From: Nitrospirota bacterium
Lineage (GTDB): Bacteria > Nitrospirota > Thermodesulfovibrionia > Thermodesulfovibrionales > Dissulfurispiraceae
DNA length: 32,722 bases
Assembly: GCA_004321915.1 (NCBI GenBank)
Contig: SCQE01000017.1
Coordinates: 1 to 32,722 of the forward strand
Reading direction: 5' to 3'
Part shown: piece by piece, positions 4,594-23,130 of the stretch
Layout of the letters: each line of letters begins with the position of its first letter
Numbering within the stretch: position 1 is the first letter of the stretch
Program-made: the position numbers and the translations under genes
Notes under the pieces: generated by a model
Told to the model about the DNA's origin: nothing
What the model saw: only the letters and a program-made list of their open reading frames with translations
The model's database searches: none

Positions 4594-5916
4594 ATGAAGT
4601 TACTTCTCGTCTCACCTCCTTTTGGAGCAAAGGGGCAGAGTTCCAAGGGTTTGCCCATCGCCCCTCCAGTGCTTGAATACCTTGCCGGGTTGACCGGTCA
4701 GGTCAGAACCGATGTCGAAATAGAGCTTGTTGACGCCAACAAAGAGCATTTTGTTCCTGAAGAAGTTGACGCCGACCTGATAGGTTTTACCGTGCTCACA
4801 CCGCAGGCCCCGTGGGTTTACAGGATGTCCAAAAGGTTAAGGGCTGCCGGCAAAAAGGTCCTGCTCGGGGGAATTCATGTAAGCGCTCTGCCGGATGAGG
4901 CCTCAGCCCATGCGGACGCAGTCGTATCCGGAGAAGTTGAAGATATATGGAAGGACATTCTCGGAGACGCTGAGAACGGCGTGCTTAAACCCTTCTATAG
5001 GGGCGCATTTCCCGATCTTAAGGGGCTGCCCAAGCCGGTCACGAATCTCTGGAAGACAAATTATGTTTACGGATATTTTCAGACATCGAGGGGATGTCCG
5101 CACCGGTGCACCTTCTGTTCCGTTCATAAATTTTTCGGGGGGAAGGTGCGTGTCAGACCGATAGATGAGGTGGTCGCCGAAGTCGCAGCGAGCAAATGGC
5201 GTCTTTTCTGGGGAATAGACGACAATATATGGGGGATAAACATAAACCACACTATTGATCTATACCGTGAGATGGGTAAATCGGTCAGGGGAAAGTGGTG
5301 GTTCGGCTCGGCCGATCTGGTGTCCGTGGAGCACCCGAGGTCTGACGAACTGTTGAGCAATGCCCGAAAAGCGGGCCTGACAGCTGTTTTGTTGGGTTGG
5401 GAGTCGAACAATCTTCAGAGTCTCGACGAGTATAAAGCCACCTCAAAGCAGGGCAGGCAAAGGCGTGACGCTATAAAGAAGATCAGGGCGCACGGAATAG
5501 AGGTCATGCTTTTCATCATGGTGGGCGGAAGGCAGGACAGGCGCGATGATTTCGAGGGCATAGCAAGGCTTTGCGACGAGCTTAAAGTGTCGGCCCATCC
5601 TGTTATGACCACCCCTTTTCCGGGCACCGAGCTTTATGAGCAGTACAGGGAACATCTTGTCCCCGGACTGGACTGGGACAGTTTTGACGGCAACCACGCG
5701 GTATTTGAACATCCCACAATGACGCCTTTGGAGAGGGAACATTTGCTGGTCGATCTAAGAACTAGGCTCTTCAGCATACCGCAGATACTTACGAGGATGT
5801 CGCAGATTTCTTTTAAAGGCTTTCCTATGAGCCATATAACCTCATGGATGGTCCAGTATCCGCAGGGCAGGGCGTTCAAACAGTACGCTAAGGAAAAAGG
5901 CATCGGAAAACTGTAA
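4594..5916 (+). CDS. B12-binding-domain radical SAM protein
   Basis: This 440-residue protein has an N-terminal cobalamin-binding-type Rossmann domain (about 1-125; LIGFTVLTP and LLGGIHVSALPDEA). A radical SAM domain follows with the 4Fe-4S motif C168-x3-C172-x2-C175 (RGCPHRCTFC). This architecture is that of class B radical SAM methylases and related enzymes (BchE-like, PF02310 plus PF04055). The C-terminal third (SHITSWMVQYPQG, FKQYAKEKG) is of a type often found in such proteins. The substrate is unknown; lipid, hopanoid or cofactor modification is possible. It ends only 4 bases from the stop of the convergent downstream gene. Confidence 0.88.
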   Translation: MKLLLVSPPFGAKGQSSKGLPIAPPVLEYLAGLTGQVRTDVEIELVDANKEHFVPEEVDADLIGFTVLTPQAPWVYRMSKRLRAAGKKVLLGGIHVSALPDEASAHADAVVSGEVEDIWKDILGDAENGVLKPFYRGAFPDLKGLPKPVTNLWKTNYVYGYFQTSRGCPHRCTFCSVHKFFGGKVRVRPIDEVVAEVAASKWRLFWGIDDNIWGININHTIDLYREMGKSVRGKWWFGSADLVSVEHPRSDELLSNARKAGLTAVLLGWESNNLQSLDEYKATSKQGRQRRDAIKKIRAHGIEVMLFIMVGGRQDRRDDFEGIARLCDELKVSAHPVMTTPFPGTELYEQYREHLVPGLDWDSFDGNHAVFEHPTMTPLEREHLLVDLRTRLFSIPQILTRMSQISFKGFPMSHITSWMVQYPQGRAFKQYAKEKGIGKL

Positions 5917-5920
5917 GTCA

Positions 5921-7696
5921 CTAAGGCGAGGAAGAAACTATTTTTGCGTACAGCTCCTGCGCCTGTTTGTTTCCGGGCATTATTTTTAACAGTTCAGATG
6001 TTTCTTTCATGGCTTCCTGCCTCATCCCCATCCTGAAGTAAGCGAGCGCTGCATTGTAGCGGGCCGATATGAAGCCCGGATTGAGTCTTGCCGCTGTTTT
6101 GAAATACTCCAAGGCTATATCGGTTTTATTTTTGTCCCCGTATACCGCGCCTAGGTTGTTGTACGCCTCGGCAAAGGAAGGCATAAGGCTTATTGCCTTT
6201 TCATACTGCTCTATCGCTTCGGAGAACATTTTTTTTGTGTAGTAGCTGTAACCTAAGTTGTTATAAGCTTCCGCATAGTCCGGTTTTAGCGACAACGCGG
6301 TCCTGTAAAGTACTATCGCGCGGTCGGGCTGTCCTTTCTTATTGCATGCGAACCCGAGATTGTTATAGACCCGGGCCTTGTCTGTTGTTTTTTTTGCGGT
6401 ATCTTCCCATAAGGTCAGCTCATCCGCCCATATGTCGTTTCTCTGGTATGTGAGGATGCACAGAACTATTGTGACAATTGCCAAAAAGGCCGCGACATAA
6501 CTGTTTCTCAAACAAAATTTGTCTTTCATAAAAAACAGCAGCGAAACTGCCGAGACGATAAAACCGAAAGAGGGCAGGTATGTCCTGTGTTCGAATATCA
6601 TGTCCTGCGTTGGGATCATGCTCGATTCTACTGAGAGCGCAGCAAAGAACCACAGCAGGCCGAAAGAGGCAATCCTCAAGTGGCGGTCGTTTGTTTTTAA
6701 CGGGAGAATAGATGCAGTTCCTATAAGTGCGGCAATAGCTATGAACGAAAGAAATACATCCGGATTCAAGAACGATGTATAGACCGGATAATTGTAGTCG
6801 AGGTTCTGGTTGACAGGCAGCATTAGCAGCCTCAGATACGTGATGACAACCCTGAACTGCGTGAACAGGTAGTCTGAGCGGGGCATGTCGCTCTTTGCCC
6901 TTGTCGCATCGTTAAGTATGGCTGCTATGTCTGCATGCTTGGATATGACAAAAAGCGATGCAGGTATGATTATAAGCGTGAGGAGTATAGGCAGAAGATG
7001 CTTGATCCTTTTTTTTGCGTCCCCTTCGAAGAACATAAATTCAAAAAGGGTAAGCATCGGCGGCAGGGTAAAGACTATCTCTTTTGTCTTCATTCCCAAT
7101 ATGGCCGATGTTATAGCCGCAGCATACCAGATTTTTTTTTCTGTCAGCCTGAACTTTGCATAGCCGATGAACGACAGCAAATAAAACATTGCGGCAAGCG
7201 ATGTAAACCGTTGGGTTATGTATGTGACCGATTCTGTTTGTACAGGATGGCTTACGAATATGAGGGCAGCGGCCAAAGGAAGCAAAAGCCGTTCGTATTC
7301 GGAACTGTTTCCGGTGCGGGGTGTTTTGAGGACAAGCGAAGTAAGAAGATATGCGAGCAGCGCGTTGATCAGATGTATCGCTATATTTGCGGCGTGATAT
7401 CCTGAGACATCGAGACCGTGCAATTCGTAATTCAGGGCAAATGTCAGGTCTCCTATGTATCTCATTACAAGGGTATGGTATCCGAAAATGTTTTCGAAAT
7501 CTTTCGCTTTTGAGGGCCCCCAAAAATATGACAGGTCTTTTATGACCGGATTTTTGACTATATAGTACTCATCGTCGAAATAAAAGGGGCTGTAGAAGGT
7601 GTTGGAGTATATAATAAGCCCGATACCTATGATGAGCAGAGCAGGCAGCATACTGCGAAGAATGGTCCGGCGCTCTAACATCCTGAAATTTAGCAT
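5921..7696 (-). CDS. multi-pass membrane glycosyltransferase-like protein with C-terminal TPRs
   Basis: This 591-residue protein starts with a membrane helix (about 14-32), followed by FDDEYYIVKNPVI, the acidic luminal-loop signature of TMTC/PMT-type GT-C proteins. About nine more hydrophobic segments follow. The C-terminal 170 residues are tetratricopeptide repeats (RVYNNLGFACNKKG, AEAYNNLGYSYYTKK, AEAYNNLGAVYGDKN, ISARYNAALAYFRMG). It resembles bacterial TMTC-like proteins proposed to glycosylate exported proteins with polyprenyl-linked sugars; that activity is inferred. The gene is divergent from the radical SAM/glycosyltransferase set that starts at 7826. Confidence 0.8.
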   Translation of the reverse strand: MLNFRMLERRTILRSMLPALLIIGIGLIIYSNTFYSPFYFDDEYYIVKNPVIKDLSYFWGPSKAKDFENIFGYHTLVMRYIGDLTFALNYELHGLDVSGYHAANIAIHLINALLAYLLTSLVLKTPRTGNSSEYERLLLPLAAALIFVSHPVQTESVTYITQRFTSLAAMFYLLSFIGYAKFRLTEKKIWYAAAITSAILGMKTKEIVFTLPPMLTLFEFMFFEGDAKKRIKHLLPILLTLIIIPASLFVISKHADIAAILNDATRAKSDMPRSDYLFTQFRVVITYLRLLMLPVNQNLDYNYPVYTSFLNPDVFLSFIAIAALIGTASILPLKTNDRHLRIASFGLLWFFAALSVESSMIPTQDMIFEHRTYLPSFGFIVSAVSLLFFMKDKFCLRNSYVAAFLAIVTIVLCILTYQRNDIWADELTLWEDTAKKTTDKARVYNNLGFACNKKGQPDRAIVLYRTALSLKPDYAEAYNNLGYSYYTKKMFSEAIEQYEKAISLMPSFAEAYNNLGAVYGDKNKTDIALEYFKTAARLNPGFISARYNAALAYFRMGMRQEAMKETSELLKIMPGNKQAQELYAKIVSSSP

Positions 7697-7778
7697 TTTG
7701 GAGCAAGGCCTTTCAATTCGTAGCGCATTGGTCCAATCATCGATCGGGATGGATAGTAAATACCTGTGGGAGCTTTAT

Positions 7779-7808
7779 TTGACATGGTTTTTTGATTTAT
7801 GTGATTAT
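7779..7808 (+). promoter_or_regulatory. candidate sigma-70 promoter for the radical SAM/GT operon
   Basis: A perfect -35 hexamer TTGACA (7779-7784) is followed after 17-18 bases by TGATTA/GATTAT (7802-7808). Transcription would start about a dozen bases before the ATG at 7826, which has no Shine-Dalgarno, so the mRNA could be near-leaderless. The poor -10 lowers certainty. Confidence 0.5.
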
Positions 7809-7825
7809 AAAATTTGGGTTTTATT

Positions 7826-8896
7826 ATGCCTGATAAATTTCGCATAGACAGTCATAAACTTATTTTTCATCCTAAAAGGGTTGCCGATTGGTTATCGGGT
7901 AATGACATTTATCCGCTTTACGTCGAGATTTCGCCTTCGGGATCATGTAATCACCGCTGTACTTTTTGCGCCCTCGATTATATGGAATACAAGCCCCGGT
8001 TTCTCGATTCTGCAGTGCTCAAGGAGCGTCTCTCTGAAATGGGGAGGCTCGGGGTAAAGAGTGTGATGTACGGCGGGGAGGGAGAGCCGCTGCTGCACAG
8101 GGACATCGGCGATATAATAGTCCACACTAAAAAATCGGGTATTGACGTAGGTATAACCACAAACGGGACTTTTCTGACAAAAAGTCTTTCCGAAAAAATA
8201 CTCGCCCACACTTCTTGGATAAAGGTCAGCCTTAACGCAGGGTCCCCGGAGACCTACTCAAAGGTGCATAGGACAAAGGCTGATGATTTCAACCGTGTGT
8301 TTAAAAATCTTTCCGATGCGGTTGCGGTGAATAAAGAGCTTGGCGCTAAATGCACCATAGGCGTACAGTCCATTCTTCTGCCCGAAAATGCCGGAGAAAT
8401 GGCAGCCTTGGCGGAGAAGGCCAAGCAGACAGGTCTAAGGTATCTTGTGGTCAAGCCGTATTCCCAGCATTTAAAGAGCCGCACTCAGGCTTACCGGGAT
8501 TTCGATTATTCGGCGTTTATCGATTTGAACGAAGAATTAAAGCGGTTCAATGACGATACTTTCAGCGTGATATTCCGTCAGCATACCATGAAAAAAATGA
8601 AAAGGACCGAAAGGGGTTACGAGCGGTGCCTTGCGCTTCCCTTCTGGTCGTATATCGATTCTGCGGGCAATTTAGTGGGCTGCAGCGCCTATCTTGGAGA
8701 TGAGGCGTTTGTTTACGGCAACATATACAACGAGACATTCGAGGCGATGTGGAAGGGCGAGAAACGCAGGAAATGCCTTGAAATGACGTCAGGTTCGATA
8801 GACCCCGAAAATTGCAGGATGAACTGCAGGATGGATGAGATAAACCTGTATCTTTGGGAATTGACCCATCCGGCAGACCATGTGAATTTTATTTAA
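7826..8896 (+). CDS. radical SAM/SPASM domain protein, paralogue 1
   Basis: This 356-residue protein has the radical SAM cluster at C41-x3-C45-x2-C48 (GSCNHRCTFC) and GGEGEP at 83-88 for SAM binding. The Cys-rich C-terminal half, with C-x-A then a C-x3-C near the end, suits a SPASM-type auxiliary cluster domain. It begins FRIDSHKLIFHPKRVADWL and ends NFI, features shared with the paralogue at 9683-10789. The ATG at 7826 is preferred to a TTG four codons upstream; neither has a Shine-Dalgarno. Its stop overlaps the next ATG by one base (TAATG). Genes of this type often sit among surface-glycan genes; the substrate is unknown. Confidence 0.85.
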   Translation: MPDKFRIDSHKLIFHPKRVADWLSGNDIYPLYVEISPSGSCNHRCTFCALDYMEYKPRFLDSAVLKERLSEMGRLGVKSVMYGGEGEPLLHRDIGDIIVHTKKSGIDVGITTNGTFLTKSLSEKILAHTSWIKVSLNAGSPETYSKVHRTKADDFNRVFKNLSDAVAVNKELGAKCTIGVQSILLPENAGEMAALAEKAKQTGLRYLVVKPYSQHLKSRTQAYRDFDYSAFIDLNEELKRFNDDTFSVIFRQHTMKKMKRTERGYERCLALPFWSYIDSAGNLVGCSAYLGDEAFVYGNIYNETFEAMWKGEKRRKCLEMTSGSIDPENCRMNCRMDEINLYLWELTHPADHVNFI

Positions 8897-9678
8897 TGAA
8901 AGGTATGGACTCGGACAATATTTATAAAGTAAGCGTTGTTATGCCCTCTTTGAATGAGCAGGCCAATCTTGAGCTTGCGGTCAAGAATGTCATCACTGCC
9001 TATGAAAGCTTGAATATAAAAGGCCAGATAGTAATCGTAAATGACGGAAGTTCCGACAGCACAGGCAGCATAGCCGAAAGTCTTGCGAAGCAGTATTCTT
9101 TTGTAAAAGTGCTGCACCACGAAACCCCGCAGGGCATCGGCGGCTCTTTCTGGGACGGCGCTTTGTCTTCAGACGGAGAGGCTGTCATAATGGTACCGGG
9201 TGACGGCGAGAACGACGCTGCAGAAATATTGAGGTACATGGATTTGATGGAGCATGTGGATGTTATCGTGCCGTACGTATTTAATAAATCTGTGCGTTCA
9301 ACCAAGCGGAGAATACTTTCCCGGCTTTATCGCGGGATCATCAATGTATCTTTCGGCATGTCTCTTAACTATATGAACGGTACGGTCGTGTATCGCAAGG
9401 CGGTCTTCGAAAATATAGAACTCCGGAGCAAGGGATTTTTTTACCAGACAGAGCTTCTTATAAAATGCATACGCGCCGGCTATCTTTACGCCGAAGTGCC
9501 GTATGCCCTCAAAGTACGCGCGGAAGGCGTGTCCAAGGCAGTAAGTCTGAAGTCGCTTAAAAATGTTATTAAGGCTTATATATCGACCTTCTGTTCGGCT
9601 TATTTCTGCGGGGGCGGGAAAGGTGAGATATCTCCGGCAACGGTGACCTATAAAAGATTTAGGGCGCTTGAGGGATAA
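8896..9678 (+). CDS. GT2 family glycosyltransferase (DPM1-like, soluble)
   Basis: About 260 residues with a GT-A fold. VSVVMPSLNEQ and IVIVNDGSSDSTGSI form the nucleotide-binding core, VPGDGEND provides the acidic DxD-like motif, and RGIINVSFGMSLNYMNGTVVYRK resembles the acceptor region of DPM1-type enzymes. No C-terminal membrane helix is seen, unlike the GT2 enzyme at 1148-2110. The start is the ATG overlapping the preceding stop. A TTG 14 codons upstream is also in frame but lies inside the previous gene. It sits between two paralogous radical SAM genes, so its product or carrier may be their substrate (inference). Confidence 0.85.
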   Translation: MKGMDSDNIYKVSVVMPSLNEQANLELAVKNVITAYESLNIKGQIVIVNDGSSDSTGSIAESLAKQYSFVKVLHHETPQGIGGSFWDGALSSDGEAVIMVPGDGENDAAEILRYMDLMEHVDVIVPYVFNKSVRSTKRRILSRLYRGIINVSFGMSLNYMNGTVVYRKAVFENIELRSKGFFYQTELLIKCIRAGYLYAEVPYALKVRAEGVSKAVSLKSLKNVIKAYISTFCSAYFCGGGKGEISPATVTYKRFRALEG

Positions 9679-9682
9679 CATA

Positions 9683-10789
9683 ATGGAAGAAAAGATAATA
9701 CTCGACGGACACAAACTGCTTTGGCACAAAGACAGGGTCGAGGCCTTGCTGCGGGGTGAGCGGGTTGCGCCTATAACGATCGACTGTGCGCTGACCCGGG
9801 CCTGTAGTTACCGCTGCGTCTACTGCTACGGACAGCTTCAGGCAAATGACGAAAAACGTATGACCAAGGATGTCATTTACCGTTTTCTGGACGACGCTGC
9901 GGAGATCGGCGTAAAGGCCATAAGCTTTGTGAGTGACGGCGAAAGCACCTGTTCGCCGCATCTGTATGACGCGATTCTAAGGGGCAAGGCGAACGGTCTC
10001 GATATGGCCCTCGGCACAAACGGATTTCTTTTGAAGGACGAAAGGCTCGACGATATACTGCCTGCATTGACATACCTCCGGTTCAATATTTCCGCCGCCA
10101 CGGCCGAGCGCTATGCGCAGATACACGGCTGTCCCCCGCAATGTTTCGAAAAGATAGTGAATACGATCAAACAGGCAGTCGCGATAAAAAAACGCAGGGG
10201 ATTGAGCGTGACCTTAGGTTTGCAGATGGTGCTGCTTCCCGAGTTTGCTGACCAGATAATTCCGCTTGCGAAATTAGGCAAGGAACTCGGCGTGGATTAC
10301 TTGGTGATCAAACATTGCAGCGATGACGAGAATTCGAGCTTGGGAGTGGATTATTCGAAATATTTCGGGCTTATAGATACACTGAAACAGGCCGAGGCCA
10401 TGTCGGACGGCTCTTACATTGTTCGCGCCAAATGGTCGAAGATACTGAGCGGAGGCAAGCGCTGCTATTCGCAATGTTACGGCCCGCCTTTGATAATGCA
10501 GTTTTCCGGGTCAGGTCTTGTTGCGCCGTGCGGCATGCTTTTCAACGACAAGTATAAGAGATATCATATCGGCAATATTGCAGATACCTCTTTCAAAGAA
10601 CTCTGGAAAGGCGAGCGTTACTGGGAAGTGATAAACCTTATAGCGTCCGAGAAGTTCGACGCAAAGACGATGTGCGGTTCTCTCTGTCTGCAGCATAAAG
10701 TGAACGAGTTTCTATGGGGGCTTAAGAAGGGAGAGGCTGCGCTTGATACGGAAACCGGAGAGCCGCCCATGCATTGTAATTTTATTTAG
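9683..10789 (+). CDS. radical SAM/SPASM domain protein, paralogue 2
   Basis: This 368-residue protein places the radical SAM cysteines at C41, C45 and C48 (ACSYRCVYC), identical positions to the paralogue at 7826-8896. It shares the HKLxxHxxRV opening and the C-terminal NFI. A SPASM-like C-terminal region contains CYSQCYGPP, APCGM and a terminal CGSLC. Its start is the ATG at 9683, with GAGG about 9 bases upstream inside the previous gene, against a TTG five codons earlier. It forms a tight operon with the GT2 gene and the downstream membrane protein. The substrate is unknown. Confidence 0.85.
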   Translation: MEEKIILDGHKLLWHKDRVEALLRGERVAPITIDCALTRACSYRCVYCYGQLQANDEKRMTKDVIYRFLDDAAEIGVKAISFVSDGESTCSPHLYDAILRGKANGLDMALGTNGFLLKDERLDDILPALTYLRFNISAATAERYAQIHGCPPQCFEKIVNTIKQAVAIKKRRGLSVTLGLQMVLLPEFADQIIPLAKLGKELGVDYLVIKHCSDDENSSLGVDYSKYFGLIDTLKQAEAMSDGSYIVRAKWSKILSGGKRCYSQCYGPPLIMQFSGSGLVAPCGMLFNDKYKRYHIGNIADTSFKELWKGERYWEVINLIASEKFDAKTMCGSLCLQHKVNEFLWGLKKGEAALDTETGEPPMHCNFI

Positions 10790-14990: not shown

Positions 14991-15019
14991 TTGCCACCGG
15001 TGAAATAGCAAGGTATAAT
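14991..15019 (+). promoter_or_regulatory. strong sigma-70 promoter of the kinase/AAA+/radical SAM operon
   Basis: TTGCCA (14991-14996), an exact 17-base spacer, then consensus TATAAT (15014-15019). The predicted start is about 40 bases before the ATG at 15065, and GGGGGA (15049-15054) acts as Shine-Dalgarno. This is the best promoter match in the window and probably drives the whole six-gene operon to 22445. Confidence 0.7.
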
Positions 15020-15064: not shown

Positions 15065-16387
15065 ATGAGCAGCGTGGTTGTGACGGATGTTGATCAAGGG
15101 ACGGTTTTGGCTGATCTCGGTAGGCTGATGGGGCAGGCTTTGCTCGGCATAGGAATGGGCGTTGCTTGGGGAATATACCTCTGTTTCGACAAATCCGCTG
15201 AAACCAAGGAGAAAGACAAGCTCAAGTCCGAACTGAACAACACGCTTTACAATTTAAGGAAAGAGCTCGACGACGTTGACGCCGCCGCAGGAAAACAACT
15301 CGAACGGGACATGGACGTTGCCGGGAAACTGGCGGCTGAAATAAAGGCGGCCCTAGATCAGGACAGGAAAGAGGATATAAAGAATGTCTTGGGAGCGCTC
15401 AACGCAAAGATAACGGATTTAAGAAAAAAGATCGAACTGGCAAAACTTTCCCAAAAGGAAGACCTGCTTTTACAGGAATATAAACCTGCAGTCCCTCTGA
15501 TGGACGATTCCCAAACAAGGTTGGGTGCCCCCGGCACTGAGACGGAAGATACGCTTGCGCCTCAGCGTCCCGCCGAAGTCTCAAATTCTAATAATTCCAT
15601 CCGTACCGAAATACTCAGATTCCACGCGCTAACAAAGGCCTACGACGAAGACGTTTACAGGGAACTCCTGCCGCTCGTGGATAGCGTGAAAGGCGAGACT
15701 TACGCTCAAAGGTTGTCTGTTGTAAAGGACAATATTAAATTGAGGTATGGAAAGCTTAAAGAAGCTGCGGCGGAGACGATAGCATACAGGAATGTGCTGA
15801 ACGGACTGATTGAGACGCTCAGGCAGCATCCCGGTTCAGGGAAACTGGCAGGCGACATCCAAATGCTCATCGCCAGAAAAAATATAACCCGCGAAGAGTA
15901 TGAAACCATACTGTCATGCGCCGCTGAACTTGCGGCCCGGGAAGTGACCGTCCTTGAGATAAAGAACAGACTTGAGGCCTTGGGTTATCACGTAGCTGTC
16001 GGGGATGACATTGCCGGGAAGATAGAAAATGGCGAGGTCGTATATCTGTCCACTAAATGGGACGGCTATAAGATCATGTTAAGGCTCGACCCGGACGGCA
16101 AGCTGACTACGAGAATGGTCCGTATGGTGGATACCGAGGACGAAAAGAAGAACATCACCTCGTATCAGAAGCAGAAAGACATCGATACGGCAAAACAATG
16201 GTGTAAGGACTATAAAGGGTTTATCGAAAAGCTGAGGGAGGTAGGGCTGACCGCTGACGTGAAATTCATCAAGGAGCCTGAGGAGGAGGGGGTAGCCTGC
16301 ATAGTCAGTGCCGGCGCTGCTCAGGCACGGGCAAAGGCGGCGGCCATTAACGGTTCCGGCGCTGAAGCGTCAATGAAGCAGTCCTGA
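15065..16387 (+). CDS. coiled-coil protein of unknown function, first gene of phospho-signalling operon
   Basis: This 440-residue protein is not recognised as a named family. Residues about 17-40 (LGRLMGQALLGIGMGVAWGIYL) form a hydrophobic, Gly-rich segment that may insert in the membrane. Residues about 50-125 are charged coiled coil (LKSELNNTLYNLRKELDDVDAA), followed by a Pro/Ser/Thr-rich linker near 140-180 and a helical middle. A compact alpha/beta C-terminal domain (LEALGYHVAVGDD, STKWDGYKIMLRLDPDGKL) ends the protein. Its stop overlaps the kinase ATG by one base (TGATG), so it is coupled to the kinase. It may be a membrane-bound scaffold or the main kinase substrate; this is inference. 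Confidence 0.75.
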   Translation: MSSVVVTDVDQGTVLADLGRLMGQALLGIGMGVAWGIYLCFDKSAETKEKDKLKSELNNTLYNLRKELDDVDAAAGKQLERDMDVAGKLAAEIKAALDQDRKEDIKNVLGALNAKITDLRKKIELAKLSQKEDLLLQEYKPAVPLMDDSQTRLGAPGTETEDTLAPQRPAEVSNSNNSIRTEILRFHALTKAYDEDVYRELLPLVDSVKGETYAQRLSVVKDNIKLRYGKLKEAAAETIAYRNVLNGLIETLRQHPGSGKLAGDIQMLIARKNITREEYETILSCAAELAAREVTVLEIKNRLEALGYHVAVGDDIAGKIENGEVVYLSTKWDGYKIMLRLDPDGKLTTRMVRMVDTEDEKKNITSYQKQKDIDTAKQWCKDYKGFIEKLREVGLTADVKFIKEPEEEGVACIVSAGAAQARAKAAAINGSGAEASMKQS

Positions 16388-18792
16388 TGATCGGCACATC
16401 CGATAACGGTAAGACCATCGTCGAGGGTACCGAAAAGACCGTTCGGGAAAAATCCGATAGGGCAATTTCCGAAACCGGCAGAACTGTAATCGAAAACGAA
16501 CGCACCGTTGTAGAGAGGTCTAGGCACGAAACAAGAGACCTTCGTCTAAAGGCTTTTAGGGGCCGGAGCGTTATAGAGGAATATCCTGCAGCCGGCGGAG
16601 AAGCGGACATCTATCTCATAGACGACAACGGCAAAAAGAATATTCTTAAGCTTTACAGGTACGGAATGAATCCCCCCGGAGAAATCCTGAAAAAAGCGAA
16701 GCAGCTGAGCGATCTCTCTCCGGAACATATTATCAGAATAGATGAATGCGGGCTCGATGAAAAGACGCAGAGATGGTTTGAGCTTATGGAGTACGCGGCC
16801 CACGGGTCTTTAAAGGACTTCGTAAAGGGCAAGCCCGACGAAAAAACCGTGCGTACGATAATAGGCGAGATACTTGAAGGCCTGAAGGTCATTCATGACA
16901 ACAACATCCTCCATCTGGACCTGAAACCCTCGAACATACTTGTAAGGAACCCCGACCCGCTTGACCTTGTTTTTGCCGACTTCGGCATATCCTCGATGCT
17001 CGATCCGGAACTGTCGAGGAAGATGACGACCGTAAAAGGCACCCCGCTTTACTGGTCTTCTGAGGCCTTTACAGGGGTGGTGGGCAAAGAGGCTGATTAC
17101 TGGTCTCTCGGTATTATAATCCTTGAATTTCTTATGGGCAGACACCCGTTCAGCGGCATCGACACTAAAGTGATAATGTTCACGCTCGCAACCAAGGGGG
17201 TGAGCATTCCGGAGGACATACCGGTTGATTTTTTTAATCTCACAAGAGGTCTGCTTACCAGAGACCCTCATGCCAGATGGGGATACAACGAGGTAAAGAG
17301 ATGGCTTGACGGAGACAGGAACGTGCCTGTTTATTATGTGCCTGAAGTGCGGACAGGCAAGAAATTCCGCCTGCCTTATAAATTCCGTGAAAGGGACTTT
17401 TATTCCTTCGAGGACCTTGTCGGCTCGTTTCTTGAAAGCGAAGAGGCGTGGCGCGATGCCAAAGAGCATCTCTACAACGAATACATAGCAAAGTGGCTTG
17501 AGAGGATGGAGGACTACGATACGGCCGTAAGGACGATAAACGCCAGGAAAGAGGCGAAAGACGACATGGATCTGGTTGTAATGACGCTCGCCTGCGGCCT
17601 CAACAAGGAACTGCCTTTTATCCTCTACGGTAAATTGATATCGGCCAAGAACCTGTCGATCTACATAGGTAAGGCGCTGAGAAAAGAGAACACGCCTGCG
17701 GAACTTGCGCTCGTCGAAAAACTGATCAACGGCAAGCTGCGCGGCTATTTTGAGCAATACCTGAAACTGACGACCAGAAAAGATAATGAATTGCTCGCAA
17801 TACTCAAGGCCATAGAGAGCAGGTCGCCCCGGATATATGTTCAGGAAAAAAAATACGAGGGCGCGCTTAAGCTGCTCGACCTGTTCGTCAATCCCGACAG
17901 TTACATGCTGCCCCATGCTTTCTGGGACGACCTTTACCTCCAGCCTGAGCTTCTTGCTTTAAACCCGGACGCCTTTTTTTCAAAAGATAGGTACTCGGAG
18001 ATATTGAGCGATTATGTGATCTCGGGGCCTTTGAAGGAAAATATCGGGAAATGCCTGACATCCGGGCATACAGCCGAGTATATAAAAACAGCTGGGCTTC
18101 TTACCCGGCTGATAGAGATAAACCATATCATAAGCCGTGATGAACTGCGCCGTCTGGAAGAGGAATACCTTATACCGGAAACGCTCAGGGGCGATATCCT
18201 TGACGGCGGGCCGTCGGAATATTCGGGTTCCATTTTTGCGTTCAGGGAACTGCAGAGGGCGGAGCTTCTGATCAAAAAGAGCGATTTCGATAATTATGCC
18301 GAGAAATATTACGGTATCCTTGAGAATATGCTGCATATCTCCAAGGCCAATACAGGCGTGAAAAACAGTGCGGCCAATCGTGCGCAAGGATCGCTTGCAG
18401 ACAGGCTCTGCATGTTGTCGAAGGAAGAATATACCAAGATATCCTTATACATAAAAAACAGGGTGGATTTGAAAATTCGGCCGATGATGAACAAGATAAA
18501 GGACAGGCTTATTAAAGAACACCCGCCGGACCTCATGTACATGGTCAGGTACATAGACGCCCTGAAGTCCGGAGAAATAAAGTGGGACGTCATGGACAAA
18601 GAGATATTAAACGAAGTGTACGCAAAACTCTTCGGTCTTGCGGACGAAGATGCTCCCATCACAGAGGCGCCGGTCATCGGTTTTTTGCTTAAATCCCTTT
18701 TGGGTGACAGAATAGAAGAGACCCCGTTCGGGGACACTTTGAGAATGAAGTATGAAACCAGATTTGACGACGTCCTTCAGGGGCGATGGTAA
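16387..18792 (+). CDS. Ser/Thr protein kinase with repeated N-terminal Thr motifs and large C-terminal domain
   Basis: This 801-residue protein has a eukaryotic-type (Hanks) kinase domain at about 60-330. It has a Gly-rich loop AAGGEAD (68-74), ATP-anchoring K88, catalytic loop HLDLKPSN (H176, D178, N183), D198-FG, and an activation segment TTVKGTPLYWSSEAF. Residues 9-43 carry five related pentads at 7-8 residue spacing: KTIVE, KTVRE, RAISE, RTVIE, RTVVE. These are likely phosphorylation or FHA-docking sites. Residues about 340-395 (SFEDLVGSFLESEEAW...EYIAKWLERM) look like a separate small helical module, and the remaining 400 residues are helical and unrecognised. No membrane helix is seen, so the kinase is cytoplasmic. 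Confidence 0.92.
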   Translation: MIGTSDNGKTIVEGTEKTVREKSDRAISETGRTVIENERTVVERSRHETRDLRLKAFRGRSVIEEYPAAGGEADIYLIDDNGKKNILKLYRYGMNPPGEILKKAKQLSDLSPEHIIRIDECGLDEKTQRWFELMEYAAHGSLKDFVKGKPDEKTVRTIIGEILEGLKVIHDNNILHLDLKPSNILVRNPDPLDLVFADFGISSMLDPELSRKMTTVKGTPLYWSSEAFTGVVGKEADYWSLGIIILEFLMGRHPFSGIDTKVIMFTLATKGVSIPEDIPVDFFNLTRGLLTRDPHARWGYNEVKRWLDGDRNVPVYYVPEVRTGKKFRLPYKFRERDFYSFEDLVGSFLESEEAWRDAKEHLYNEYIAKWLERMEDYDTAVRTINARKEAKDDMDLVVMTLACGLNKELPFILYGKLISAKNLSIYIGKALRKENTPAELALVEKLINGKLRGYFEQYLKLTTRKDNELLAILKAIESRSPRIYVQEKKYEGALKLLDLFVNPDSYMLPHAFWDDLYLQPELLALNPDAFFSKDRYSEILSDYVISGPLKENIGKCLTSGHTAEYIKTAGLLTRLIEINHIISRDELRRLEEEYLIPETLRGDILDGGPSEYSGSIFAFRELQRAELLIKKSDFDNYAEKYYGILENMLHISKANTGVKNSAANRAQGSLADRLCMLSKEEYTKISLYIKNRVDLKIRPMMNKIKDRLIKEHPPDLMYMVRYIDALKSGEIKWDVMDKEILNEVYAKLFGLADEDAPITEAPVIGFLLKSLLGDRIEETPFGDTLRMKYETRFDDVLQGRW

Positions 18793-18850
18793 AAAAAGAC
18801 CGGCGAGGAGGGAGAATGGCTTTTACCGGAAATATGACGGGGGATCACGA

Positions 18851-20662
18851 ATGGACCGGAATATAGTCCCTAAGTGGGCCAGAGAGATAGTGAGGTTTAT
18901 GTCTATAAAGCCCCAGTTCATGCTGTGGGGCAACGTATATGACGTCTACCCCATGGAGTTGGGCGGAAGCGTAATCACGTTCAAAATGATTGATTACCTG
19001 AGGAGGATGCTTACCGAAAACGGTTACGGTATGGTGGTTGCCTACGAGCCGCTATACGGGTTCACGCTGCTTGAAGGGGACCCCGACGCTTTTAAGTCGA
19101 TTACAGGAGAGTCCCCCGGCAAGGACAAGACCTTTGCCTGCACGGTAGGCAAGGCCGTGGAAATGATCGAGAGGCTGGTGGAAAACGAGCGGGAATACTG
19201 TTCTGTGGTCCTGAACTTCTCCTCCCGCATTCCGGACATAGCCGGCAACGACATCAACGAATTTTATTTCAGGATGTTCAGGCTTGCACAGACCGCTGTG
19301 CCGAGGATGACTGGTAACGACAGCGCCCCGAAATTCAATTTGGCTGTCTGGATAATGGACAAGGAAAACGATGTGCCTGCGTGGTATACGCTGGACAACC
19401 CCAAGATAAAAAATCTGGCGGTGCCTAAGCCCGATTATCCGGTACGCAAGACGATCGTCGAAAACCTTTCAAAAAATATCGATAAATTCAACGAACTGGA
19501 TGAGGCCAAGAGGCAGGAAGGCATATCCATATTCGTCGATCAGACCAACGGACTGCACGGTACCGAGATAGTCTCTATCGTCGCCCTTGCAAAGAGGGAG
19601 GGGGTGCCCTTCGGCGAGATAGCAGAGGCGATAAGGATGTACAAGCTCGGCATAGTCGAAAACCCGTGGTCGAAGATAGATATGGGCAAGATCGGCGATG
19701 CAGGGCCGCTGCTGTCAAAAAGGGTAATGGGTCAGGACCTTGCGATAAACAAGGCCTCGGACATAATAAAGAGGTCTGTATTTAATCTTTCGGGTTCTCA
19801 GTATTCTAAGTTTTCACAGAGACCAAAGGGCGTGCTCTTTTTTGCCGGGCCGACCGGCGTAGGCAAGACTGAACTCGCAAAGGCAGTTACGGAGCTGCTC
19901 TTCGGTTCAGAGACCAGTTACATACGTTTTGACATGAGCGAGTTCGCACATGAACACGCAGACCAGAGGCTCGTGGGCGCGCCTCCCGGATATGTCGGAT
20001 ACGACGTCGGCGGACAGCTCACCAATTCCATAAAGCAGGACCCTTTTTCCGTTGTGCTGTTCGATGAAATAGAAAAAGCGCATCCCAAGATACTGGATGT
20101 GTTTCTCCAGATACTGGACGACGGAAGACTTACTTCCGGCAGGGGGGAGACCGCATATTTTTCGGAGAGCCTGATCGTATTTACCAGCAACCTCGGCATA
20201 TACGAGGTGACGCCCGATGGCCGGAAAATACAGAAAGTGGGCCCGGACATGTCGTACGAGGACATAAACAAAAGCATACTCGGGTCGATCGAAGACTTCT
20301 TCAAGTACAAAATAGGCAGACCCGAAATACTGAACAGGATCGGCGACAATATCGTTGTATTCGATTTCATCAGGCCCGCCGTGGCCTATCGCATACTCGA
20401 CAAGATGCTCAGGAATGTCATATACAAGATCGAAGACACGCATAAGGTAGGTATCGATATAAGCGAAGGCGCCTTGGCCAAACTCAGGGAGGCGTGTTGT
20501 TCGGACCTAGGAATGGGCGGAAGGGGCGTAGGCAATAAACTCGAAGACGTTTTCATCAACCCCCTGTCTAGGGCGCTCTTTGAGGACCGTTCGAAAGGTC
20601 GTGATAGACTGACGATAACCGATGTGCTGAAAAAAGATACAATATGGGAACTCGTGCTATAG
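18851..20662 (+). CDS. ClpB/ClpA-like AAA+ ATPase with degenerate N-terminal ATPase domain
   Basis: A 603-residue protein from the ATG at 18851, chosen because GGGGGA lies 6 bases upstream; an in-frame ATG at 18752 would extend it into the kinase gene. Residues 290-600 are a Clp-type second AAA+ domain: Walker A GPTGVGKT (333-340), pore loop GYVGY (380-384), Walker B VVLFDEIEKAH (401-411), sensor 1 TSN (445-447), and an arginine finger in EILNRIG. Residues 1-270 look like a decayed first AAA+ domain with no Walker A; LWGNVYDVYP occupies that place. No ClpP-docking IGF/L loop is seen, so it probably remodels proteins rather than feeding a protease. It overlaps the radical SAM gene by 19 bases. 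Confidence 0.9.
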   Translation: MDRNIVPKWAREIVRFMSIKPQFMLWGNVYDVYPMELGGSVITFKMIDYLRRMLTENGYGMVVAYEPLYGFTLLEGDPDAFKSITGESPGKDKTFACTVGKAVEMIERLVENEREYCSVVLNFSSRIPDIAGNDINEFYFRMFRLAQTAVPRMTGNDSAPKFNLAVWIMDKENDVPAWYTLDNPKIKNLAVPKPDYPVRKTIVENLSKNIDKFNELDEAKRQEGISIFVDQTNGLHGTEIVSIVALAKREGVPFGEIAEAIRMYKLGIVENPWSKIDMGKIGDAGPLLSKRVMGQDLAINKASDIIKRSVFNLSGSQYSKFSQRPKGVLFFAGPTGVGKTELAKAVTELLFGSETSYIRFDMSEFAHEHADQRLVGAPPGYVGYDVGGQLTNSIKQDPFSVVLFDEIEKAHPKILDVFLQILDDGRLTSGRGETAYFSESLIVFTSNLGIYEVTPDGRKIQKVGPDMSYEDINKSILGSIEDFFKYKIGRPEILNRIGDNIVVFDFIRPAVAYRILDKMLRNVIYKIEDTHKVGIDISEGALAKLREACCSDLGMGGRGVGNKLEDVFINPLSRALFEDRSKGRDRLTITDVLKKDTIWELVL

Positions 20663-21258
20663 AGGATATCCACATAGGACTTGTCCACTATCCTGTCTTG
20701 TCGCTCGGGGCCGGCAGGAGAGTGGGGATATGGTTTCAGGGCTGCAATATCAGATGCAAGGGCTGCATCTCTCAATACACATGGGAGGTCAACGATACCT
20801 GCAAGACTACCGTAGGCAGACTGCTGGCCGACATAGCAGGCTATAAGTGTGCCGCACCTGACGGCATAACCATCTCCGGCGGTGAACCTTTTGACCAGCC
20901 CGCAGCTCTTTATTCACTCTTGTCGGGTATAAGAGAACACGGCTTTAATGACATCATGGTTTACAGCGGATATGAATATGATTATCTGAAGGAAAACTAC
21001 CCTGATATTCTGGCGCTGATAGACGTTCTGATAGACGGCTGCTTTGTAGAGGGTCTGACCACGTCCTATTCTTGGAAAGGGTCGGAAAACCAGAGGATGA
21101 TCGTCCTTGCAAAAGATGACGCGTTAATACAAAGATATCGCGAGTACGGACAAAACGCCGACCGGCGGTTACAGATAATCGAGAAAACGGGTTCTGTTTA
21201 TATTGTAGGCATTCCGCTGCAGAGCGATTCGGAGGAGATAAAAAATGTCCTTGGTTAA
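20644..21258 (+). CDS. NrdG/PflA-like radical SAM activating enzyme
   Basis: This 204-residue protein has a single 4Fe-4S motif C34-x3-C38-x2-C41 (QGCNIRCKGC) and the SAM-binding SGGEPFDQP (78-86). The WFQGCN start and short length are those of the activases that make glycyl radicals on anaerobic ribonucleotide reductase or pyruvate formate-lyase. No glycyl-radical enzyme is encoded in the window, and the gene is locked by overlaps between the AAA+ gene (19 bases) and the FHA gene (14 bases). A specialised role inside this phospho-signalling operon, rather than housekeeping NrdG activity, is therefore likely (inference). Confidence 0.88.
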   Translation: MGTRAIEDIHIGLVHYPVLSLGAGRRVGIWFQGCNIRCKGCISQYTWEVNDTCKTTVGRLLADIAGYKCAAPDGITISGGEPFDQPAALYSLLSGIREHGFNDIMVYSGYEYDYLKENYPDILALIDVLIDGCFVEGLTTSYSWKGSENQRMIVLAKDDALIQRYREYGQNADRRLQIIEKTGSVYIVGIPLQSDSEEIKNVLG

Positions 21259-21691
21259 GATATGCCCCACCTGCAAGACAAGAAACGAGCCCTCGGAGAT
21301 GATGTGCGGGATGTGCCTCGGCGACATTTCCGGAGTCAGTCCTGTGGACAATGAGCAGCCCCCGGTTTCAATGGCCGAAGACAGGACAATCGTTCAAAGG
21401 GGCGGTATCGTTCTGAAGCTGTCGGGCGGCGGAGACATACCTGTATGCGATGGGGACATAGTAGGGCGCGAGGCTGTCGGCAAAGAGATCCTGCAGCCTT
21501 ATAAGACCATATCCAGAAGGCATGTCCGTTTCACCTTCGAAAACGGCGGATGGCTTATAGAAGACCTGAATTCCACCAACGGAACATACCTTAACGGCAA
21601 CAGGCTTGCGGCAAATGCCAAGACCCCTGTAGCGCACAATCAGAAACTCTCTCTGTCGTCCGCCTGTGAAATCGTCATAGAGCGGAAATGA
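21245..21691 (+). CDS. zinc-ribbon plus FHA domain protein
   Basis: This 148-residue protein has an N-terminal zinc ribbon (C7-x2-C10 and C21-x2-C24). A linker carries RTIVQ (47-51), which closely matches the pentads at the start of the neighbouring kinase. A complete FHA domain follows (about 55-145) with G74-R75, S90-x2-H93 (ISRRH) and DLNSTNGTYLNG (108-119). FHA domains bind phosphothreonine. A short Thr-containing tail before an FHA domain recalls GarA/OdhI-type regulators, where phosphorylation of the tail closes the FHA site. It should read the kinase signal. Its start lies inside the radical SAM gene, and the PP2C gene follows after about 16 bases. Confidence 0.93.
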   Translation: MSLVKICPTCKTRNEPSEMMCGMCLGDISGVSPVDNEQPPVSMAEDRTIVQRGGIVLKLSGGGDIPVCDGDIVGREAVGKEILQPYKTISRRHVRFTFENGGWLIEDLNSTNGTYLNGNRLAANAKTPVAHNQKLSLSSACEIVIERK

Positions 21692-21707
21692 GTCGAGGGC
21701 ATTGACA

Positions 21708-22445
21708 TTGCGATCATCCGGAATGACCGACAGGGGCGTCAAACGCCGGACCAATCAGGACAGTATCTTTATGGACGACGATCTCGGCCTGTATATCGTG
21801 GCCGACGGCATGGGAGGACATGATAGCGGAGAAGTGGCCAGCAGTATGGCTGTAAGCGGAACAGCTTCGTTTCTGAAAAGTTGTTTTCATAGGATGTCCG
21901 GCTCGCCTGAGGATGAAACAAGGGTCATCGATTGCCTGCAAGATGCTGTCTCGACCGTAAACAGGCGGATATACGACGAATGGCGGAAAGGTCCCGGCGG
22001 ACTGATGGGGACGACCATATCGCTGTTGCTTTTAATGTCGGGCCGGGCATACACCGCACATGTCGGCGACAGCAGGATATACAGGGTGCGGGACGCTAAA
22101 CTTGAAAAACTTACCAAAGACCACAATCAGGCGCAGGCGATGGCTGACGCGGGACGGATCAGCCCTGAAGAGGCGGAAAACCATAAGTTGAGCCATGTCC
22201 TCACAAGGTCCGTAGGCTCCGATGAGACAGTCACGTCCGATGTCGCATTTTATGAAGTCAGAAAAGGCGATATGTTCCTCCTCTCATCCGACGGCATGTT
22301 CAGGGTGATGAATGCTTCCGAGGTGGAGGAGGCGCTAAAGGCCGGTTTATCGCCGGACAAGGCATGCAGGCTGCTTATGGACCGGACTATAGAGAGGGGC
22401 GCGCCCGACAATGTATCCATAATCCTTGTGGAATGCGGGCTATAA
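21708..22445 (+). CDS. PP2C-family Ser/Thr protein phosphatase
   Basis: About 245 residues with the metal-dependent PP2C motifs in order: RTNQDS, VADGMGGHDSGEVAS (metal-binding Asp), TAHVGDSRIYRV, KDHNQ, LLSSDG and PDNVSIIL. It should reverse phosphorylation by the operon kinase. No ATG fits well. TTG at 21708 lies 8 bases after GAGGG (21695-21699) and keeps the first beta strand (RSSGMTDRG), so it is preferred over TTG at 21702 and ATG at 21723. It is the last gene of the operon. Confidence 0.92.
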   Translation: MRSSGMTDRGVKRRTNQDSIFMDDDLGLYIVADGMGGHDSGEVASSMAVSGTASFLKSCFHRMSGSPEDETRVIDCLQDAVSTVNRRIYDEWRKGPGGLMGTTISLLLLMSGRAYTAHVGDSRIYRVRDAKLEKLTKDHNQAQAMADAGRISPEEAENHKLSHVLTRSVGSDETVTSDVAFYEVRKGDMFLLSSDGMFRVMNASEVEEALKAGLSPDKACRLLMDRTIERGAPDNVSIILVECGL

Positions 22446-22618: not shown

Positions 22619-22825
22619 ATGAACACGCTGGAAATCAAGAAAATGAGCAGAGTTGAGCGCCTGCAAGCCATGGAGTCGCTCTGGAATTCGCTTATGGATG
22701 AGGAATGCGAAATGGAATCCCCTGAATGGCATCGTGATGTTCTGGAAGAGAGGAAAAGAAAGATCGAAAACGGTGAGGCGGAATTTATTTCCCTTGAAAA
22801 GTTAAGGGCGAGCCGCAAGCCGTGA
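22619..22825 (+). CDS. antitoxin, putative addiction-module component family
   Basis: This 68-residue acidic protein has LQAMESLWNSLMDEE followed by SPEWHRDVLEERKRKIENGEAEFI. This is the pattern of the short antitoxins paired with ParE/RelE toxins (TIGR02574-type: ERLxLxExLWxSL...P.WHxxVLxER). It should bind and neutralise the adjacent toxin and probably represses the pair. GGAGGG upstream supports the ATG. Its stop overlaps the toxin GTG start (GTGA), the usual coupling in such modules. Confidence 0.87.
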   Translation: MNTLEIKKMSRVERLQAMESLWNSLMDEECEMESPEWHRDVLEERKRKIENGEAEFISLEKLRASRKP

Positions 22826-23130
22826 AAGTCGGGTCTGTAGTTGTATCGAAAGAGGTCATTGACGACCTGAACAGCGGAAAAACCTTTTATGACCGGAAAG
22901 AAGCCGGTGTTGGCGATTACTTTTGGGACAGCCTGCTTGCCGATCTCGAATCCCTGATAATCTACGCAGGCATTCACAGTAAGCAGTTTGGTCTCTATCG
23001 GATGCTTGCCAATCGATTTCCTTACGCAGTTTATTACGAAATTGTAGATGACGTTGCTTATGTTGTCGCTGTTTTGCCGATGCGACGTAACCCTGATTGG
23101 ATCAAGAGAAAATTGCAAGTAAGGAGCTAA
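22822..23130 (+). CDS. ParE/RelE-family toxin
   Basis: This 102-residue protein starts at GTG in the GTGA overlap. It shows the ParE/RelE fold pattern: an N-terminal strand VVVSKEVIDDL, two helices (AGVGDYFWDSLLADLESL), then FGLYRMLANRFPYAVYYEIVDDVAYVVAVLPMRRNPDW. The final strand with the R-R-x-P segment is typical of ParE, which poisons gyrase, but RelE-like mRNA cleavage cannot be excluded. Its family usually pairs with exactly this antitoxin type. It ends about 100 bases before the convergent permease gene. Confidence 0.88.
   Translation: MKVGSVVVSKEVIDDLNSGKTFYDRKEAGVGDYFWDSLLADLESLIIYAGIHSKQFGLYRMLANRFPYAVYYEIVDDVAYVVAVLPMRRNPDWIKRKLQVRS

Follow-up and report, generated by a model that had tools for sequence, protein, structure and literature searches.

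In the threonine phosphorylation pathway of type VI secretion (PpkA, PppA, Fha and ClpV), a kinase, a PP2C phosphatase and an FHA protein control a Clp-family ATPase. Other described systems share single elements with the locus analysed here: Hhe/PDC-S37, an anti-phage DUF4011-SF1 helicase-nuclease; Mokosh, with the helicase MkoA and MkoC; Dodola, whose DolB is a ClpB-like anti-phage protein; and TerY-P, in which a TerY vWA protein is combined with a kinase and a PP2C phosphatase. In the FtsH ternary system (vWA-MoxR subsystem 3 of Kaur et al. 2020), AAA domains are accompanied by a radical SAM protein which 'likely modifies a peptide-effector' (PMC7159879). We describe an operon of six genes within a 32,722-nucleotide stretch of a Nitrospirota genome (the window), and propose, at a probability of about one half, that these genes could encode one undescribed phosphorylation-gated protein-remodelling machine, whose role would most likely be directed against invaders (phage or plasmid). 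No named system in Pfam, NCBIfam or PADLOC matched the set, in agreement with an earlier note on this DNA, which knew of none built on the pair of Clp protein and activase, and no paper describing it was found in an open-access library.

The earlier note had read the six genes at 15065-22445 as one unit behind a strong promoter. All six open reading frames were found and the domains of all but CC confirmed by Pfam and NCBIfam (Table 1), the promoter is the top-scoring match of the region, and the arrangement supports one operon-like unit. The overlaps of 1, 19 and 14 bases that had been counted are correct, and so is the gap of 58 bases between KIN and CLP, counted from position 18851, where the conserved part of CLP begins (Met34). 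The last gap had been given as 16 bases, but FHA and PPM lie 10 bases apart if PPM starts at its TTG codon, and further apart with later starts.

Table 1. Promoter and genes of the operon, in window coordinates.
Feature	Position	Strand	Basis
Sigma-70-like promoter, TTGCCA-17-TATAAT	14991..15019	+	consensus matches 11/12
CC, 440-aa coiled-coil protein	15065..16387	+	ORF
KIN, Ser/Thr kinase, 801 aa	16387..18792	+	ORF + Pfam
CLP, Clp/ClpB-type AAA+ unfoldase, probable start 18851	18752..20662	+	ORF + Pfam/NCBIfam
ACT, NrdG-like radical SAM protein	20644..21258	+	ORF + Pfam/NCBIfam
FHA, four-Cys Zn ribbon + FHA domain	21245..21691	+	ORF + Pfam
PPM, Stp1-type PP2C phosphatase, TTG start	21702..22445	+	ORF + Pfam/NCBIfam

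The surroundings of the operon in the window include genes for a hemerythrin-like protein, a chemoreceptor and response regulators. This neighbourhood is no defence island, and the sole hint of one is a type II toxin-antitoxin pair directly downstream (22619-23127), in which the gene for a 68-aa Unstab_antitox protein (PF09720, 7.6e-14) overlaps that of a ParE-like toxin (PF05016, 8.7e-4). Positions 45-114, at the left end of the window, match a group II intron domain (RF00029) with 57 bits. Three further radical SAM genes, one with a B12-binding domain and two with SPASM domains, are interleaved with glycosyltransferase and TPR genes at 4594-10786 and may form a cluster of their own for modification or glycosylation.

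CLP matches AAA_2 in Pfam (1.1e-44). Its D2 carries Walker A (GPTGVGKT), Walker B (LFDEIEK) and a pore loop (GYVGY), and in an alignment of 17 relatives the D2 Walker A and B motifs, the GYVG pore loop, sensor 1 and the RPEILNR box are fully or almost fully kept; in the same alignment no P-loop occurs within the first 300 residues. The AlphaFold2 model (pLDDT 81.6) matches ClpC, ClpB and ClpA with both AAA domains covered (Foldseek 1.6e-31), and the comparison with ClpC gave a VIA Z of 28.0 over 505 residues with an rmsd of 6.4, or 3.1 for the second domain alone. Because the model matches Clp proteins across both domains and the P-loop is absent, the first domain is a D1 that has lost its Walker A motif. 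CLP thus resembles two-domain ClpB/ClpC, with a degenerate D1 (about residues 37-300) and, by its motifs, an active D2. It has the Clp arrangement of two AAA domains, the D2 Walker motifs and the Tyr pore loop, and lacks both the pair of active ATPase domains and the Clp N-domain, the Pfam scan having found no Clp_N. That it would be a Clp-type ATPase without a ClpP-docking loop, as had been suggested, agrees with the alignment, where no conserved IG[FL] loop could be found by eye. The host genome encodes other Clp ATPases besides CLP.

ACT matches Fer4_12 (4.9e-30) and carries both features of the radical SAM superfamily: in 20 diverse sequences the CxxxCxxC cluster motif (C34, C38 and C41) is invariant, and in the SAM-binding GGE the two glycines are invariant and the glutamate nearly so. 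A further motif, GSxNQ, is invariant or nearly so in the same sequences.

Of the signalling proteins, KIN matches Pkinase (1.9e-33), its catalytic residues K88, D178, N183 and DFG (198-200) are invariant in an alignment of relatives, and a conserved extension (about residues 310-550) follows the kinase domain. The FHA domain (3.9e-14) is joined to a four-Cys ribbon and has the canonical phosphothreonine-binding residues GR, SRxH and N, and PPM matches the Stp1-type PP2C phosphatases (3.3e-62). The intact catalytic and reader residues support the complete kinase, phosphatase and FHA circuit proposed in the earlier note. Within their N-terminal 60 residues, KIN proteins are enriched in T[IV] motifs (24, against 7.7 +/- 2.5 in shuffled sequences, with 0 of 2000 shuffles reaching 24), and such an N-terminal array would fit autophosphorylation sites for FHA docking. 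CC has a conserved C-terminal domain (LGYxV ... WC-x-D) and belongs to no family in Pfam, NCBIfam, PADLOC or PHROG; its AlphaFold2 model (pLDDT 64.7) gave no trustworthy match in the PDB. Profile comparison found this C-terminal domain to be homologous to that of the CC proteins of Rhizobium, Aristaeella and Desulfobacteraceae (hhalign E 5e-15; every control, whether shuffled, reversed or unrelated, stayed above 0.3), so that CC is, to judge from the profiles, related to the MSGPK-type coiled-coil proteins of the sister systems described below. We propose that it is a scaffold or adaptor.

The check suggested by the earlier note, conserved co-occurrence across genomes, gave a positive answer. 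A tblastn comparison of the six window proteins with 16 loci encoding a CLP relative found the set in the order KIN-CC-CLP-ACT-FHA-PPM on Synergistaceae contigs (about a dozen Synergistaceae loci), CC-CLP-ACT-KIN-FHA-PPM on a Desulfobacteraceae contig and CLP-ACT-FHA on a Gracilibacteria contig. Some of the Synergistaceae loci have two KIN-type kinases in tandem (L013, 3408-8396; L020, 292-5369), and the C-terminal half of several Synergistaceae kinases contains hydrophobic segments that probably span the membrane and have no counterpart in the window KIN. Within the host's order, the survey of 176 genomes found CLP in 7 and each of CC, KIN and ACT in 8 (one of the CC cases being marginal), the genomes being nearly identical for the four genes. 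Pairwise Fisher tests for the presence of CC, KIN, CLP and ACT gave 5e-9 to 9e-12 in these 176 genomes, and, for the pairs with CLP counted by genus, 2e-7 to 3e-8, values that overstate independence and are too optimistic because the sample holds several related genomes of one genus. Two of the mismatches come from less complete assemblies: G325 is 56% complete, and the edge of a contig coincides with the start of ACT in G326. The window's family and a second family with the set (f6) are separate lineages, and among those listed CLP is found neither in the other member of the host's genus nor in the rest of its family. We conclude that CC, KIN, CLP and ACT are co-inherited, and that recurrence of the set across phyla together with co-inheritance within the order is more than chance.

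Linkage is looser than co-inheritance. One relative (G323, L057) has CC-KIN-CLP-ACT-FHA in the same order as the window, and four others (G099, G154, G238 and G244) have all five of these genes split across several contigs or loci, so that homologues are scattered in relatives, an observation that the earlier note would have counted against a single system, in the physical sense and not by gene presence. PPM lies outside the clusters of the host's relatives and is the least constant member of the set. As to whether the AAA+ protein and the activase always travel together, they do in most loci, and ACT is missing beside CLP in five (L007, L009, L011, L014 and L019). From these five loci, and from the absence of PP2C from the relatives' clusters, it follows that neither ACT nor PP2C is strictly needed. 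On plasmids, the window kinase was specific: at E<=1e-25 it had matches in only 8 of 72,556 records, each of which encodes CLP and ACT as well. Phage records held no relative spanning most of CLP, and the matches listed for E. coli genomes were nothing beyond ordinary Clp genes.

Beyond loci with the full set, the CLP-ACT pair is a recurring core, and three groups of sister systems are built on it. In Rhizobium and Caballeronia (group i), CLP and ACT are followed by a fusion protein of 2,100 residues, which joins a KIN-family kinase to DUF4011, an SF1 helicase and an MTES_1575 nuclease domain, and then by an MSGPK coiled-coil protein; the Rhizobium fusion matches PADLOC PDC-S37 (1e-139), Hhe (8e-65) and MkoA (2e-46). 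In Aristaeella (group ii), the gene of a PDC-S37/Hhe-like protein (1107 and 474 bits) overlaps KIN, after which come an MSGPK coiled coil, FHA, ACT, CLP, PP2C, a DUF6273 protein and a second kinase. Plasmids of Moellerella, Photobacterium, Leisingera, Polaromonas and Acinetobacter (group iii) carry an SF1 helicase, a PIN protein, a protein of 370-380 residues, CLP and ACT, in that order. Their helicase is MkoA-like where tested (7e-102 against MkoA in Moellerella), and some of these operons adjoin integrases or plasmid genes. In the CLP tree, group iii stands apart from all kinase-bearing loci, and group i lies beside the clade of the window and Synergistaceae. The 'hyp' protein of the gammaproteobacterial operons was also compared with the window CC; the match was weak (hhalign E 0.32 for the whole protein, 0.0032 for a local C-terminal alignment), and homology to CC is only suggestive.

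Several of these loci and their surroundings deserve mention in their own right. The compact five-gene plasmid operon of MkoA-like helicase, PIN_4, hypothetical protein, CLP and ACT (L028, L029, L040, L041 and L081) looks like an unnamed candidate defence system itself, and on the Acinetobacter plasmid (L081, 12712-14694) it is directly followed by a second pair of AAA ATPase and radical SAM protein. A relative has, at L072 (G238:C39, 3219-14741), a second ACT-like protein, after which come a double AAA ATPase, Hsp70 and a coiled-coil protein; genes for a PP2C phosphatase and a kinase-FHA-RDD membrane protein run divergently from these, and the whole resembles a sister system with Hsp70 as its basis; in Calothrix, an ACT-like protein also occurs with Hsp70 and a double AAA ATPase. 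On plasmids of Paenibacillus and Arthrobacter relatives (L036, L038 and L035), operons combine an AAA ATPase, Ycf46-like by eye, with a DUF1257-like protein, a DUF2997 protein and an ACT-like radical SAM protein; DUF1257 and DUF2997 resemble the C-terminal domain of CC by eye only, and we do not claim homology. Short and probably truncated helicase genes accompany an MSGPK coiled-coil protein near transposases in Microvirga (L079, 10085-16095) and Roseomonas (L080, 988-3692), the Microvirga helicase adjoining a type I restriction endonuclease and a SIR2 protein.

How might the products of the six genes work together? A stimulus would activate KIN, which would autophosphorylate its N-terminal T[IV] array and probably also phosphorylate CC. 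The Zn-ribbon/FHA protein could then bind the phosphothreonines and dock the CC scaffold and the CLP ring, and CLP, through its live D2 and Tyr pore loop, would thread or unfold a target. ACT may perform radical chemistry on the protein thus exposed, rather than on a classical glycyl-radical enzyme, and PP2C would reset the switch. In the window, the machine would take a form dominated by signalling, with either no nuclease at all or one encoded elsewhere. The anti-invader reading is preferred because CLP and ACT, often with the same kinase and CC, are fused or adjacent to Hhe- and Mokosh-related helicase-nucleases elsewhere; the mobile contexts and the patchy presence (7 of 176 genomes) also favour it. 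The earlier note had considered a stress-response or defence machine plausible, and this fusion and adjacency lend indirect support to the second option. More tentatively, the loci might belong to an undescribed superfamily of prokaryotic machines whose core consists of three proteins (a Clp ring that is half inactive, a radical SAM protein of NrdG type and an MSGPK-type coiled-coil adaptor), driven by either a kinase/FHA/PP2C switch or helicase-nuclease/PIN effectors, in which proteins threaded by the unfoldase undergo radical modification. To our knowledge, radical modification coupled to unfoldase threading is known nowhere else. If true, these proposals would bring into bacterial conflict or stress biology an unfoldase that is controlled by phosphorylation and has a radical enzyme of its own, and would connect helicase-nucleases of the Hhe and Mokosh kind through one common regulatory core.

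The machine is probably a defence or a stress device, and an anti-invader role is the more likely of the two. A housekeeping role in stress or proteostasis, in which a kinase-controlled disaggregase would act on damaged proteins, ACT would repair or tag them and the links to defence helicases would be later recruitments, is nonetheless a serious, if less likely, contender. It would account for a CLP that is ClpB/ClpC-like throughout, for the lack of a nuclease in the window operon, for the association of ACT-like proteins with Hsp70 and double AAA ATPases (L072 and Calothrix) or with AAA ATPase and DUF1257/DUF2997 in sister loci, and for the chromosomal splitting of the genes in several relatives. 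Several observations weigh against defence: neither a nuclease nor any other evident killing effector is encoded in the window operon, its surroundings are not those of a defence system, the genes lie on several contigs in family f6, as would seldom be expected of a mobile cassette for defence, and Hsp70 and AAA chaperones are partners in sister loci such as L072. However, the presence of the set is rare and patchy, unlike that of housekeeping chaperones, the host already has other Clp ATPases, and the association with SF1 helicase-nucleases is repeated on plasmids.

The remaining explanations are far less probable. It is very unlikely that ACT is the organism's NrdG or another glycyl-radical activase, in the operon by chance. 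NrdG, which has the same radical SAM core and CxxxCxxC motif, is its best named family (1.3e-29), and ACT is the only NrdG-like match in the genome; yet it scores 103 bits against a cut-off of 126, has an extra C-terminal region with GSxNQ and is tied to CLP across phyla. Moreover, the glycyl-radical domain (PF01228) and NrdD (PF13597) are absent from the host genome, which is 99.6% complete, with controls positive; glycyl-radical activation was rejected for this lack of a partner, and the earlier description of an activase with no visible partner holds genome-wide. What, then, is the substrate of a radical SAM activase in a genome that encodes no glycyl-radical enzyme? Still less probable is a type VI secretion PpkA-PppA-Fha-ClpV regulon or its degenerate remnant, which would share with the window a kinase, PP2C, FHA and a Clp-family ATPase, the TssH/ClpV model matching CLP at 2.6e-58. 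At 198 bits, however, CLP lies far under the ClpV cut-off of 885 and scores higher with the ClpB model, its D1 is not an active one, and its conserved partners are a radical SAM protein and CC; the sheath gene VipB/TssC (PF05943) is absent from the host genome, and in five relatives that carry the set no match reached the cut-off, with a positive E. coli control, and the regulon was rejected on this ground. Least probable of all is that two or three modules with nothing in common lie side by side by chance. The splitting of the genes in some relatives and the inconstancy of PP2C would agree with it, but the genome sets of four genes are near-identical, the set recurs in several phyla, and the same kinase family is fused to a helicase beside CLP-ACT. 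Co-inheritance refutes a chance neighbourhood for CC, KIN, CLP and ACT, a refutation that does not extend to PP2C.

Read as a phosphorylation-gated machine, the window set can be placed among the known systems as follows. Hhe/PDC-S37 occurs in sister loci, fused to a KIN-family kinase or adjacent to it and beside CLP, ACT and CC; as modelled, Hhe has no CLP, ACT, CC, FHA or PP2C, and AAA_11/AAA_12, DUF4011 and MTES_1575 are absent from the six window proteins. Mokosh resembles the CLP-ACT operons of gamma-, beta- and alphaproteobacterial plasmids, which likewise start with an SF1 helicase and have the PIN protein, the CC-like protein, CLP and ACT in addition; in the window there is neither an MkoA with its SF1 helicase nor MkoC, and KIN covers only the kinase portion of MkoA (13-275 of 1112, 1e-20). 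CLP matches DolB of Dodola (2.8e-16) and PADLOC PDC-M37B (9.6e-28) in the AAA core only, and their partners differ from the window set. TerY-P is set apart by its vWA protein, as none of the six proteins has a vWA domain. The nearest published idea is the FtsH ternary system with its radical SAM partner (PMC7159879), in which, as predicted for CLP, the N-terminal AAA domain is inactive and the second active in one protein; it differs in having an FtsH-type AAA and in needing vWA and MoxR, whereas in the window set the ATPase is of Clp type and is accompanied by kinase, FHA and PP2C, none of the six proteins is a vWA or MoxR component, and the AAA protein has ClpB as its best match. By analogy, the window set would function most like a phospho-controlled AAA+ conflict system.
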